Shown piece after piece: positions 1 to 5,253 of a stretch of DNA of 64,000 nt (position 1 is the first letter of the stretch; every line of letters begins with the position of its first letter). Source of the stretch: Planctomyces sp. (GTDB lineage Bacteria; Planctomycetota; Planctomycetia; Planctomycetales; Planctomycetaceae); NCBI GenBank assembly GCA_019636235.1, contig JAHBXW010000008.1:1-64000 (forward strand). Reading direction: 5' to 3'. A program made the translations under genes and the position numbers. The notes under the pieces are model-generated. The model saw nothing but the letters and a program-made list of their open reading frames with translations, was not told the origin of the DNA and searched no databases.

Positions 1-126
1 GCACCGCGTTTCAACGCCGCCACCGAACATCGGCGTTACCAACTCGATCTCGTAAACGCGAACGTTGTTCGATGTGCTCTGTACTGGAGCCTGAGGACAA
101 TCTGGAATGCTTTTTCGGTTTGCCAT
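1..126 (-). CDS. cmr1: Type III-B CRISPR RAMP protein Cmr1, N-terminal 42 codons (partial)
   Basis: The minus strand opens an ATG at 126 and reads without a stop to the window edge. The visible 42 residues contain VYEIELVTPMFGGGVETR, which matches the first beta strand and glycine-rich loop at the start of Cmr1-family RAMP proteins. Cmr1 is a subunit of the type III-B (Cmr) effector complex, which binds crRNA and destroys matching phage RNA/DNA. The start lies only 5 nt after the stop of the DUF499 fragment (132-974), so it is probably co-transcribed with it. No repeat array or other cmr gene is visible; these would lie beyond the left edge. The call rests on a short stretch, so it is good but not certain. 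Confidence 0.72.
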   Translation of the reverse strand, partial: MANRKSIPDCPQAPVQSTSNNVRVYEIELVTPMFGGGVETRC

Positions 127-131
127 GGATG

Positions 132-974
132 TCACTCCCACGCTTTCGTCTTGAACCCTAGCGCCGAGGCATTCTCGGAGACGGCACGCTTGATTTGGTC
201 TGAGGCTCCGGAGGGAAACTCGGCGTTGATTTCGAGAGTGATGTTTAGAGATGCGTTGGGGTCGCCGGCGAGGAGGGCGATGATCTCGTCGGCGACTTGG
301 ACCAGGTGCATCTTCGCAGCAGATGGCTTGATCTGAATCGATCCGTGGAAGGACTTGGGTTTGGTCGCGGTGGTCGTGCCGGTGCCTGTGGTACCCGTGC
401 CTCCGGTGCCAGTCGTACCCTGGCCATCGGTAGAAGTCCCGGTTCCGGTATCGCCACCACCAGACGTGCCTCCATCCGTCGATGTGCCTCCGCCAGTGGC
501 TGTTGAGCCGGTCTTTGCGGCTTCTTCGGCCTTCTTAAGCTGGGCCAGGTACTCCGTGGCGGCGCTGGGCTCGATCAACAGGAGCGTGTCGTCGAATTGG
601 ACGTTCCCTTCGCCGATGTGGAATCCGGTGTACTTGTCGCCTTCCTGGCCGTAGGCAGTGCCGAAGAAGTCTGTTGACGCTGCACCGGTGCGAATGGCCT
701 GTGTCAGCGAATCGCGACTCTTGAGCCTGGGCAGGTACAGGTAGCGGAGCGTATCTTCCCAGAATGCCATCGCTCCGGCTGCGGCCTTGCCGTCCTTCCA
801 GTACAGTTCCTTGAGCTTTGTGCGGAGGTGGATCGGAGACCAGGTTGTGATGACCAGCTCGTTATCGATGCAGACTCGCTCGATCTCATTGCCCGCGGAA
901 CCGCCGGTGGTGTTGAGGGGGAAGGCTTCGACGGTGGGCTTGGGATCGGTGGGCGTGTTCTGAACGGGGCACAT
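132..974 (-). CDS. DUF499 defence ATPase, C-terminal fragment downstream of an in-frame stop
   Basis: This 280-residue frame is the continuation of the reading frame at 987-1964: between them lies only a TGA (989-987) and four sense codons (YKWL), and no frame change. The sequence after the stop (MCPVQN..., then RLKSRDSLTQAIRTG, and the end region SLNITLEINAEFPSG) follows the order expected in the C-terminal third of DUF499 proteins, large AAA ATPases found in DUF1156/DUF499/helicase anti-phage islands. Residues about 155-205 are a Gly/Thr/Ser-rich linker. The ATG at 974 may not be a real start; unless the UGA is read through, this is a pseudogene half. The gene ends 5 nt before cmr1. Confidence 0.7.
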   Translation of the reverse strand: MCPVQNTPTDPKPTVEAFPLNTTGGSAGNEIERVCIDNELVITTWSPIHLRTKLKELYWKDGKAAAGAMAFWEDTLRYLYLPRLKSRDSLTQAIRTGAASTDFFGTAYGQEGDKYTGFHIGEGNVQFDDTLLLIEPSAATEYLAQLKKAEEAAKTGSTATGGGTSTDGGTSGGGDTGTGTSTDGQGTTGTGGTGTTGTGTTTATKPKSFHGSIQIKPSAAKMHLVQVADEIIALLAGDPNASLNITLEINAEFPSGASDQIKRAVSENASALGFKTKAWE

Positions 975-986
975 CAGCCACTTGTA

Positions 987-1964
987 TCACTCGCGTGCAG
1001 CACGTGGCACGACCTCTTCGGCGCTTTGCAGCTCCTTCTCGGCTTGCTTCTTCTGAAGGAGGTCGATGTTAAGGCGTCCCTCCTTCACGTCTTCGACGAT
1101 CGAGTTCCACGCCAGGGCGACGCGAGCGACATCACGCAGGCGATTCAGAACGGCCATGTCGGGTGCGAGAAAGACCAGTCGATTGCCTCGGTATCGCGGC
1201 TTGGTGCCGTTGTTGCGCACGTAATCAATCACGGCCTGCTCGGCGGGCTGTTTGAGATCGCGTGAGTGACAGAATTCCGGAGCGAGAACAACAAGGCGGA
1301 GGGCGCTGTCGTCGGGTACGTCTCCATGCGGCGTGAAGATGTGGACGCCGTCGAAGAATGTCGCGCTACCCACCATCTTCTTGAGGGCTTCGCCAATCTT
1401 GCCGCGCACGTCGGTGTTGTCATCGAAACGCCGCTTGCGATCCTCCATTTCGCGGCGCAGGTTGGCGCGAGTATCGAACCAGAAGCGAGTCGCTTCCTGG
1501 GCCTTGTCCCCGGAGCTGTTCAGGTAGTGGAGGCGATCTGCCAACCGGTTCAAGGCATCGATGTAGGTTGCAGAGGTTTGCCCTGGTTGCAAACAACCGA
1601 GCAGGACTCGGGCGCGATCGAGGCCGCGAATGCCAGACTTTCCGGCGACGGACGACGGCGCACTGCCAAGGAACAGCGTACGGGCTACGCGGCGAAACGC
1701 CAGATCGATCCGCTTGGCTTCGCAGGTCAGCTGGAAGGCTTCGCCATCGCCATCAAAGGACCAGGGGCGCTCAACGGTGGCGACGCTCAGGTTCGCTTCA
1801 TCGGCTCGACCCAAGAGCCGCTCTTTGGTGGTCCCGTCGGGTGTGCGGTAGAAGACCTGAACCGAACCTTCCCCAATGGGCACGACGGCAGCGATGGTGG
1901 CAACCGAAGTTGGTTCCAGCCCGACAAGCGGCATTCCAGGTTGTAGGTCTTCGAGTTTGAGCAT
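987..1964 (-). CDS. Chimera: SNF2-type defence helicase N-terminus fused to DUF499 C-terminal region
   Basis: The first ~90 of 325 residues (LEDLQPGMPLVGLEP, then ERPWSFDGDGEAFQLTCEAK) resemble the N-terminal domain of the large SNF2/DUF3883 helicases of phage-defence islands, which normally continues into helicase motifs. Instead, from about residue 91 (RRVARTLFLGSAPS) the protein follows the post-ATPase part of DUF499 proteins (RVLLGCLQPG, RFWFDTRANL, DVPDDSALRLVVLAPE). No Walker A or helicase motif is present, so neither enzyme can work. The simplest reading is a large in-frame deletion that fused the first gene of the operon to the last. The frame ends at a TGA at 989-987, after which DUF499 homology continues. 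Family assignment is from remembered family sequences. Confidence 0.68.
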   Translation of the reverse strand: MLKLEDLQPGMPLVGLEPTSVATIAAVVPIGEGSVQVFYRTPDGTTKERLLGRADEANLSVATVERPWSFDGDGEAFQLTCEAKRIDLAFRRVARTLFLGSAPSSVAGKSGIRGLDRARVLLGCLQPGQTSATYIDALNRLADRLHYLNSSGDKAQEATRFWFDTRANLRREMEDRKRRFDDNTDVRGKIGEALKKMVGSATFFDGVHIFTPHGDVPDDSALRLVVLAPEFCHSRDLKQPAEQAVIDYVRNNGTKPRYRGNRLVFLAPDMAVLNRLRDVARVALAWNSIVEDVKEGRLNIDLLQKKQAEKELQSAEEVVPRAARE

Positions 1965-1976
1965 TGTCGTTGTAAC

Positions 1977-2189
1977 TCAGCCCTTCGGTTTCTTTTGGGA
2001 CGACACAGGCCGCGCCACGGTCTTCAGGAACTTCTCCAAATCATCTCTCCGGAACAGCCGGTAGCCGTTCGCGGGGTTTTTGTGCATGGGAATCTTCCCC
2101 GCTTCAGCCCAGGTTCGGACGGTGCCTTGCGACACCCCCAGAATCTCGGCAGCCTCAGCAACCTTCACGTACTCGCTCAGCTTGGCCAT
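1977..2189 (-). CDS. Small MerR/excisionase-type helix-turn-helix protein
   Basis: This 70-residue protein starts at MAKLSEYVKVAEAAEILGVS and contains a winged-HTH typical of MerR/excisionase-like DNA-binding modules: AAEILGVSQGTVRTWAEAG is the recognition helix region and NGYRLFRRDDLEKFL the wing and following helix. Almost the whole protein is this domain. The frame is open further upstream, but the ATG at 2189 gives the exact family start. It sits 12 nt upstream of the helicase/DUF499 chimera in the same direction, a place where similar small HTH genes precede DUF499-type defence operons, so it likely regulates that operon and perhaps its own promoter. It looks intact although the gene behind it is broken. 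Confidence 0.82.
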   Translation of the reverse strand: MAKLSEYVKVAEAAEILGVSQGTVRTWAEAGKIPMHKNPANGYRLFRRDDLEKFLKTVARPVSSQKKPKG

Positions 2190-2957: not shown

Positions 2958-3165
2958 GTCGCTGCTCGTCGGGCCCGCGCGCAGCTTCAGCGCAGTTGGT
3001 CATGGTCAAAATCTCCGCAAGAGAATGGCCACCGATCGCGGCGATGGCTGGGGCAGGTTCGTGGCCGAGCACGGCCTCTATTGTTTACCTACCGGGCGGA
3101 GGCGAGAATTGGCGGGGAAAAATCGTGAAACCGAGGCTTCGTGCGAACGAGAGGAACACTGCAGA

Positions 3166-4860
3166 ATGGCCAAGTCGGAAGCAACTGTCGAGGAACTGGT
3201 CGGTAAGATTGAACGAGGCGAACTGCGCCTGCCAGAAATGCAGCGGCAATACGTGTGGCGTTCGCCTCGTGTGCGCGACCTCCTCGACTCTCTCTATCGT
3301 GGATATCCTTCCGGCGCTATTCTGCTTTGGGAAACAGATGAAGTAGTTCCACTTCAAGATTTCGCGGTTAGCCAACAAGCCAATCCATACAAGACCACGC
3401 TCCTCTTGCTGGATGGACAGCAAAGGTTGACGTCCCTTTCCGCGGTCATTCGCGGTGAACCCATTTCTGTTCGGGGAAGGAAGAAGCCGATTGAGCTGCT
3501 CTTCAACCTCGAGCATCCTGATGAGCTAAGCATCGTCACTGAGGTCAACGAAGATGGCGACGACGAGGACGAAAATGAACCGGACACGGTCGACTCGACG
3601 GAAGACGAGCTTCAGCAACGATTCGAGAAGATGACATTTGTTGTTGGCACGAAGAAACTCGAACAGCTACCGCAATGGGTGAAAGTCACCGATGTTTTCA
3701 AGACAGACAACGATGCCATTTTTCTCAAGCGGGCTGGCGTGTCCGGCTTCGATGCCCCCCGCTACGAGAAATACAGTCAGCGACTTTCTCGAGTCCGAGG
3801 AATACGAAAGTACGTCTATCGCATGGATGTCCTGGAACGAAAGCTCTCTTACGACGAGGTCACAGAGATCTTCGTTCGGGTCAACTCACTTGGTGCCAAG
3901 CTGCGAAGTTCGGATCTTGCACTGGCTCAGATAACGGCGAAGTGGCGAGGTGCGTTAAAGACGTTTCAAGCCTTTCAGGAACAGTGTGCAAAGCGCGGTT
4001 TCGACCTTGATCTCGGATTGCATGTAAAGAATCTCATCGCGCTTGCAACTAACCAGTCGCGATTCCTGACGGTGAACACATTGACCGTCGAACGCCTACA
4101 GGAAGCCTGGAAGCATGCGGTCAAAGGAATGGAGTTTGCGACCAATTTCCTTCGCAACAATGTCGGAATTGACAGCACGGCGTTGCTTTCTTCTCCGTAT
4201 CTTCTGGTTTCACTGGGGTACTTTGGCCACAGGAAGGATTACCAGATCCCATCGAGCGATGAGACGAAACTGCGTTACTGGGTGTTGGCCGCGAATGCCA
4301 AGGGCCGCTATTCTCGTGGCTCGAGCGAAACGCTACTAGATCAGGATCTTGCGACAGTTCGCGATGGAGGCGGCACCGACCAACTGATCGAACGACTTCG
4401 ACTGCAGGTTGGTGTTTTAGAAATTCTCCCCGAAGAGCTTGAAGGTCGTAACCAGCGAAGCTCGCTCTTCAAAACCATGTTCCTGGCGTTTCGCGACGCC
4501 GGTGCCAAAGACTGGCGTTCGAATCTGGCGATCGCTCTTGATCATTCAGGCTCGCAGCATCGGCTTCAATTTCATCACATCTTCCCCAAGGCCTTGTTAA
4601 AGGGTAGTTACTCTCGTAGGGAGTTGGATGACATTGCGAACCTGGCCTTCATTGGCGGCAAGACGAATCGGGCCATAAGCGACAAGTCGCCGGAGAAGTA
4701 CTTTCCGGGACTTATCGAAAAGGCGGGGCAGAAGTCCTTCGACGCTCAGTGCATACCTACCGCTTCCGACTTGCTCTCCGTAGACCAATACAGAGCCTTT
4801 CTAGCCGAGCGACGACGCCTCATTGCCAAGTGCCTGAACGACTTCCTGAACAGAGGATAA
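3166..4860 (+). CDS. Single-chain GmrSD/DUF262-HNH type IV restriction-like protein
   Basis: The 564-residue protein has an N-terminal DUF262 domain (LPEMQRQYVW at 22-31 and DGQQR at 83-87, the nucleotide-binding motif of GmrS/DndB-like proteins) and a C-terminal DUF1524-type HNH nuclease (HHIFPK from residue 470, with asparagines at 492 and 501). In GmrSD, SspE and BrxU-like systems these domains use NTP hydrolysis and cut modified phage DNA, or phage DNA in modified hosts. Residues 129-148 form a very acidic insert rich in Asp and Glu. The ATG at 3166 is preceded by GAGGAAC at 3151 and gives the normal family start, although the frame is open earlier. The base composition is visibly less GC-rich than core genes. 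It stands alone; no modification genes are visible next to it. Confidence 0.85.
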   Translation: MAKSEATVEELVGKIERGELRLPEMQRQYVWRSPRVRDLLDSLYRGYPSGAILLWETDEVVPLQDFAVSQQANPYKTTLLLLDGQQRLTSLSAVIRGEPISVRGRKKPIELLFNLEHPDELSIVTEVNEDGDDEDENEPDTVDSTEDELQQRFEKMTFVVGTKKLEQLPQWVKVTDVFKTDNDAIFLKRAGVSGFDAPRYEKYSQRLSRVRGIRKYVYRMDVLERKLSYDEVTEIFVRVNSLGAKLRSSDLALAQITAKWRGALKTFQAFQEQCAKRGFDLDLGLHVKNLIALATNQSRFLTVNTLTVERLQEAWKHAVKGMEFATNFLRNNVGIDSTALLSSPYLLVSLGYFGHRKDYQIPSSDETKLRYWVLAANAKGRYSRGSSETLLDQDLATVRDGGGTDQLIERLRLQVGVLEILPEELEGRNQRSSLFKTMFLAFRDAGAKDWRSNLAIALDHSGSQHRLQFHHIFPKALLKGSYSRRELDDIANLAFIGGKTNRAISDKSPEKYFPGLIEKAGQKSFDAQCIPTASDLLSVDQYRAFLAERRRLIAKCLNDFLNRG

Positions 4861-5134: not shown

Positions 5135-5180
5135 CGTGCGTTAACTGGTTAACTGGCCAGTTTCGAGGCCAAAAAATCAG

Positions 5181-5253
5181 CTCCCGGACTAGGACTCGAA
5201 CCTAGAACCTAGCGGTTAACAGCCGCTCGCTCTACCGATTGAGCTATCCGGGA
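5181..5253 (-). tRNA. tRNA-Asn (anticodon GTT)
   Basis: The minus strand folds into a complete 73-nt cloverleaf. Acceptor arms are TCCCGGA and TCCGGGA with discriminator G; the D stem is GCTC/GAGC; the anticodon stem AGCGG/CCGCT holds the loop CTGTTAA with anticodon GTT; the T arm is CTAGG-TTCGAGT-CCTAG. The 3' CCA is not encoded. The 3' end points toward the lower-GC island at 1-5180, the side on which tRNA-targeting integrases insert DNA. Confidence 0.97.

Follow-up and report, generated by a model that had tools for sequence, protein, structure and literature searches.

The closest described system is Hma, a defence operon of a helicase, a methylase and an ATPase (PMC8565338). It has been renamed the DUF499-centred, BREX-related (BR) system in PMC12839542. 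According to that source, the helicase of BR systems carries an N-terminal TUDOR domain, and in the DUF499 protein winged-helix, alpha+beta and RRM-like parts come after an AAA+ domain. It assigns helicases with an N-terminal TUDOR domain to Type-1 and Type-3 and takes a DUF3780 gene as the criterion of Type-2 (PMC12839542).

A scan of 84,980 species genomes yielded 77 related loci. Pieces of both hmaA and hmaC were present in 24 of them, 7.5-9.9 kb apart, and the remaining loci carried one piece each, many at contig or locus ends. Our reference locus, L010, comes from a Planctomycetota MAG with Lac Pavin in its title and is complete, in the order HTH-hmaA-hmaB-hmaC, with hmaA, hmaB and hmaC ORFs of 1179, 975 and 961 aa. 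The original prediction had described the helicase and the DUF499 ATPase as separate genes of one operon, and in L010 hmaA and hmaC are indeed genes 1 and 3, with the DUF1156 methylase gene hmaB between them. A QatC/QueC-like gene lies shortly downstream of this intact operon (L010 12456-14579).

The window, by which we mean the whole 64,000-nucleotide stretch of Planctomyces sp. DNA analysed here, opens with what is very probably a young pseudogene, the remnant of a restriction-like defence operon of the Hma (DUF499-centred, BREX-related) kind. It consists of the following features:

1977..2189, minus strand: small excisionase/MerR-like HTH gene, 70 aa with the start codon chosen here, open
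1695..1964, minus strand: hmaA codons 1-90, encoding the N-terminus of the SNF2 helicase (PADLOC HmaA 1-90)
1694..1695: deletion join hmaA/hmaC (located by a breakpoint scan with L010 and by comparison with other hmaA and hmaC genes)
990..1694, minus strand: hmaC codons equivalent to L010 HmaC 442-676, after the AAA+ part (PADLOC HmaC 437-665)
987..989, minus strand: in-frame TGA ending the fused ORF (Cys in 39/53 aligned sequences)
132..986, minus strand: remaining, C-terminal part of hmaC (ORF 132-974 in the list; PADLOC HmaC 671-940)
1..126, minus strand: first 42 codons of the next gene, possibly cmr1 (weak; one plasmid match)

The fused ORF runs on the minus strand from 1964 down to 987 and encodes 325 aa between an ATG start and a TGA stop. 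Against the PADLOC profiles, its residues 1-90 match HmaA positions 1-90 of 1176 (E 9e-28) and its residues 89-325 match HmaC positions 437-665 of 941 (E 9e-90), the two matches meeting at residues 89-91. The two-part make-up, seen both in these profile matches and in the DNA alignment with L010 described below, is far beyond chance. Pfam gave no match above cut-off on the 325-aa ORF, and its sole NCBIfam match, to an anti-phage DUF499 protein over residues 89-314, lay far below cut-off. The original prediction had read residues 1-90 as the N-terminal domain of a defence helicase and residues 91-325 as the post-ATPase part of DUF499, and both assignments hold; no one family matched both parts, and the helicase match was present. 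It had also proposed a deletion with ends near 1694, which our breakpoint scan and DNA alignment against L010 place at 1694/1695. There, HmaA (SNF2 helicase) residues 1-90 run in frame into HmaC (DUF499 ATPase) from about residue 442. The optimal breakpoint lies 269 bases past the ATG, and the DNA alignment breaks cleanly, the hmaA side of the window aligning up to L010:2492 and the hmaC side from L010:10006. By the L010 map, about 7.5 kb between these points are gone, namely the helicase core, all of hmaB and the AAA+ half of HmaC. Comparison of the join with L010, two further hmaA and four further hmaC sequences shows at most about 2 shared bases.

What survives is close to L010. Residues 1-90 share 90% amino-acid identity with its HmaA (218/270 nucleotides), the middle of HmaC is identical at 225/235 residues (96%) from residue 442, and the end of HmaC after the TGA is identical at 243/283 residues (84% for ORF 132-974). 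The 5′ flank including the HTH gene also matches L010. This HTH gene sits 12 bases upstream of the fusion and is recognised by Pfam as HTH_17 (E 7.5e-14, for the longer ORF 1977-2411) and by PADLOC as a mad1-like HTH (E 1.2e-13). A homologue lies directly before hmaA in L010 (87% over 67 aa) and L099 (76% over 59 aa) and in no other locus in hand; it is probably the first gene of the operon.

HmaA and HmaC were sought throughout the assembly. Only positions 1-90 of HmaA are present at the locus, which lacks the helicase core, and no second match to HmaA 1-90 was found in the genome. The six other HmaA matches of the genome are to helicase cores elsewhere; an SNF2 protein on contig C34 matches HmaA only from position 99. 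No hmaB gene lies between the hmaA and hmaC parts at the locus. The genome contains a single HmaC match, covering positions 437-940 of 941, and the AAA+ part has no match anywhere in the assembly. An operon that has lost its methylase, its helicase core and its ATPase can neither restrict nor modify.

A further lesion, overlooked in the original prediction, ends the fused ORF. ORF 132-974 matches HmaC positions 671-940 (PADLOC, E 1.5e-75) and continues hmaC in the same frame past the TGA at 987-989. Among 53 aligned sequences, a count that includes the window and some records present under two names, this position holds Cys in 39, Thr in 7, Ala in 4, Ser in 2 and a stop in 1, the window itself; all seven aligned relatives (six distinct records) have Cys. 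The TGA is a premature stop inside hmaC that truncates the product. A plain ORF call here yields two seemingly novel proteins, a fusion and one of 280 aa, both of them pieces of one broken gene. A TGA where most relatives have Cys is also the usual mark of a selenoprotein, and its decoding as selenocysteine would give a fusion product of about 610 aa. However, the relatives also use Thr, Ala or Ser at this position, and neither selB (best score 170.1 against a cut-off of 242.25 bits) nor tRNA-Sec (44.4 against 47 bits) exceeded its cut-off in the window's own genome. As the tRNA score falls just short of its cut-off, that test is not decisive by itself. We rejected decoding as selenocysteine, which is largely excluded by the missing selB and has a negligible probability.

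We then asked what selection on the surviving codons says about the age of the lesions. Branch models were run on a FastTree topology with supports of 0.24 to 0.997, leaving out L087, apparently a duplicate of the L012 contig (equal length, zero distance). Before the stop, omega on the window branch was 0.026 versus a background of 0.031 (p 0.74; seven sequences), and after the stop, with the linker excluded, it was 0.043 versus 0.052 (p 0.69). Pooling the two, again without the linker, gave 0.032 versus 0.045 (p 0.31). The upper limits of omega from the likelihood profile (a drop of about 1.9 log units) were near 0.06 before the stop and 0.11 after it. Codon differences from L010 were 39 silent and 9 not in hmaA 1-90, 96 silent and 10 not in the middle of HmaC, and 70 silent and 16 not after the stop without the linker. 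No relaxation was measurable on the window branch, and as a dating tool relaxed selection gives an upper bound only. Since omega is not raised there, any loss of constraint must be confined to a short final stretch of the branch, and both lesions look recent by this sequence comparison. Constraint after the stop is not below that of the relatives and is therefore best interpreted as a legacy of the intact gene.

The predicted fold of the fused product was poor, with a mean pLDDT of 59.5; residues 1-90 had no aligned rows, which by itself lowers confidence there. Block means were 35-60 for residues 91-170, compared with 53-84 for the equivalent segment in a model of L010 HmaC 1-676 (mean 71.8), and 61-90 for residues 171-325. 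A predicted helix of L010 HmaC, 433-451, spans the breakpoint at 442. The deletion thus seems, in these models, to cut into a folded part of HmaC, and residues 171-325 of the product might fold.

The fusion was searched for in other genomes and collections. Among 59 near genomes, own genome included, 13 had a match, and only the own genome matched across both halves; G001, the only other genome of this set labelled as the same genus, had no match. In 392 phylum genomes, own genome included and partly the same as the near set, with at most 5 first-look candidates scored per genome, 45 had a match and residues 1-325 were covered in the own genome alone. Two weak matches of 24-25% identity overlap the join, in G086 (52-304, E 3e-6) and G108 (66-323, E 1e-3). 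The strong matches that start at query residues 62-88 are HmaC genes aligned slightly into HmaC upstream sequence, with open frames of 953-981 aa and one of 712 aa near a contig end (G026). The fusion was found in none of the 77 related loci. In the plasmid collection, 56 of 72,556 records matched in part and none covered 80% of the query at one place; no record of the phage collection matched at E 1e-5, and a 30-base exact pattern across the join was not found in viral contigs. These collection searches may have omitted records very near the window's own genome. Among the literature matches listed, no title was on an hmaA-hmaC fusion. We rejected the fusion as a known architecture because no strong match in genomes, loci, plasmids or phages spans both halves.

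Decay of the Hma operon is ordinary, as suggested by the 6 broken loci (L038, L040, L045, L051, L058 and L062) among 48 HmaA starts with at least 3.3 kb downstream; in the other 42, the frame extends for at least 1000 aa. Some of the six may be assembly errors. In a betaproteobacterial MAG (L040 10001-13158), hmaA codons 1 to about 420 lead to hmaB from residue 316, which by its sequence looks like an independent deletion within an Hma operon. There, hmaA runs into hmaB in another frame, whereas the window has an in-frame hmaA-hmaC join. L051 differs from the window in that its deletion lies inside hmaA, and L038, L045, L058 and L062 are truncated hmaA frames in recognisable loci; none of these is an in-frame hmaA-hmaC fusion. 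In addition, G411 (C1:282585-290950, part in L128) has only short frames of 75-283 aa that match HmaC pieces at 46-76% identity, and about 8 kb from them a match to HmaA residues 7-74. This locus is perhaps another decayed Hma operon, to judge from the pieces.

The remnant lies at the start of contig C44. The gene at 1-126 begins five bases past the hmaC stop and is cut by the contig end after 42 codons. It has one plasmid match annotated cmr1 (57% over 28 aa, E 0.1) and is matched by no profile of Pfam (to E 0.01), NCBIfam or PADLOC (both to E 10); on this weak match, it is possibly cmr1, a type III-B CRISPR RAMP gene. Neither Cmr1 nor Cmr2 has a match in the assembly, which suggests missing DNA at the start of C44. 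On the other side, a GmrSD-family restriction-like gene at 3025-4860 on the plus strand (PF03235, E 3e-29; PADLOC HEC-05, E 3e-49) has no match in G001. ORF 2436-2957 on the minus strand holds a partial glycosyltransferase group 1 domain below the Pfam cut-off and may be a gene fragment. A tRNA-Asn gene follows at 5180-5253 on the minus strand, with a G+C content of 52-61% on the remnant side and 65-70% beyond the tRNA. In G001, type I methylase, specificity and PDC-S11 genes occupy the same side of the same tRNA, its 3′ side (L138 5075-9966). Two genomes of the genus therefore carry defence genes 3′ of tRNA-Asn, in the window the Hma remnant and GmrSD, and the surroundings fit a defence island at a tRNA. 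A search for an att-site duplication at tRNA-Asn found only the tRNA itself. Nine window proteins were unmatched in the 19.9 kb around the shared tRNA-Asn of G001, and no empty site was readable there.

Three points count against a pseudogene: the deletion preserved the reading frame, the codons on either side of the stop still show amino-acid constraint, and residues 171-325 might fold. The first two are what a very recent event should leave behind, but they would also fit a retained protein or a sequencing or assembly error. Such an error is the main rival to the remnant reading and has a minor chance of being right. In that case, the genome would hold an intact operon, and the join, the TGA or both would be errors near a contig end. 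The assembly indeed breaks off at the start of C44, 1.7 kb from the join, and the very short overlap and the lack of relaxed constraint would fit an error; the cut gene after hmaC and the unmatched Cmr1/Cmr2 leave room for some missing DNA. However, assemblers seldom join on an overlap of about 2 bases, and two separate errors would be needed for both lesions. Moreover, in an assembly of 45 contigs with a listed completeness of 99.99%, the front half of HmaC is unmatched and HmaA 1-90 is matched only in the window.

It is less probable still, and unlikely in its own right, that the fusion is a retained protein, in which the old promoter of the operon would drive the HmaA N-terminal domain and the DUF499 fragment, downstream of the HTH gene, and the product would serve as a nucleic-acid-binding, decoy or regulatory protein. 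The frame kept over 325 codons, the open HTH gene, a start region that resembles that of L010 hmaA, low omega before the stop and the better-modelled residues 171-325 (block means 61-90) agree with it. Against it, the fusion was not found in 58 relatives, 391 other phylum genomes (overlapping sets), the 77 loci and the plasmid and phage collections, and constraint as strong after the stop as in relatives reflects the time before the lesions. Furthermore, the stop cuts off the end of HmaC, residues 91-170 are modelled at pLDDT 35-60 where L010 HmaC reaches 53-84, and helix 433-451 is cut by the join. The specific claim that the ORF is a 325-aa two-part nucleic-acid-binding protein, transcribed behind the HTH gene and now a regulator or decoy, we hold to be slightly more doubtful again. 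Thus, of the two alternatives left by the original prediction, the dead remnant is favoured by the TGA lesion, the occurrence of the fusion nowhere else and the poor model at the join, and a small protein kept under selection received no positive support.

Overall, we propose the following putative course for a recently disabled Hma operon. A single deletion, whose two ends have at most about 2 bases in common, would have taken out the helicase core and the remainder of HmaA, the entire methylase gene and the ATPase part of HmaC. The frame at the join would have been kept by chance, at about 1 in 3 for random ends; as about one third of random deletions join in frame, the frame alone is no sign of selection. 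A separate change, before or after the deletion, would have created the stop codon. If translated, the 325-aa product would join the N-terminal domain of HmaA to a damaged middle part of HmaC and would most likely be inert. The locus can thus be viewed as a snapshot of a large defence operon dying, in which one deletion removes three activities, a stop breaks the remainder and the mark of past selection is still present. The hmaA-hmaC remnant opens no new mechanism.

Compared with Hma as defined in PADLOC, the window differs in being without hmaB, the helicase core and the AAA+ part, and its leftover hmaC is split by a stop. A functional Hma/BR system, with a HmaA helicase core, HmaB in the operon and the AAA+ part of HmaC, therefore does not appear to be encoded here. 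The likeness lies in the two ORF halves, which score on the HmaA and HmaC profiles, and in the A-B-C order of L010. Homology of the surviving pieces, together with this operon order, argues for descent of the locus from the Hma family.
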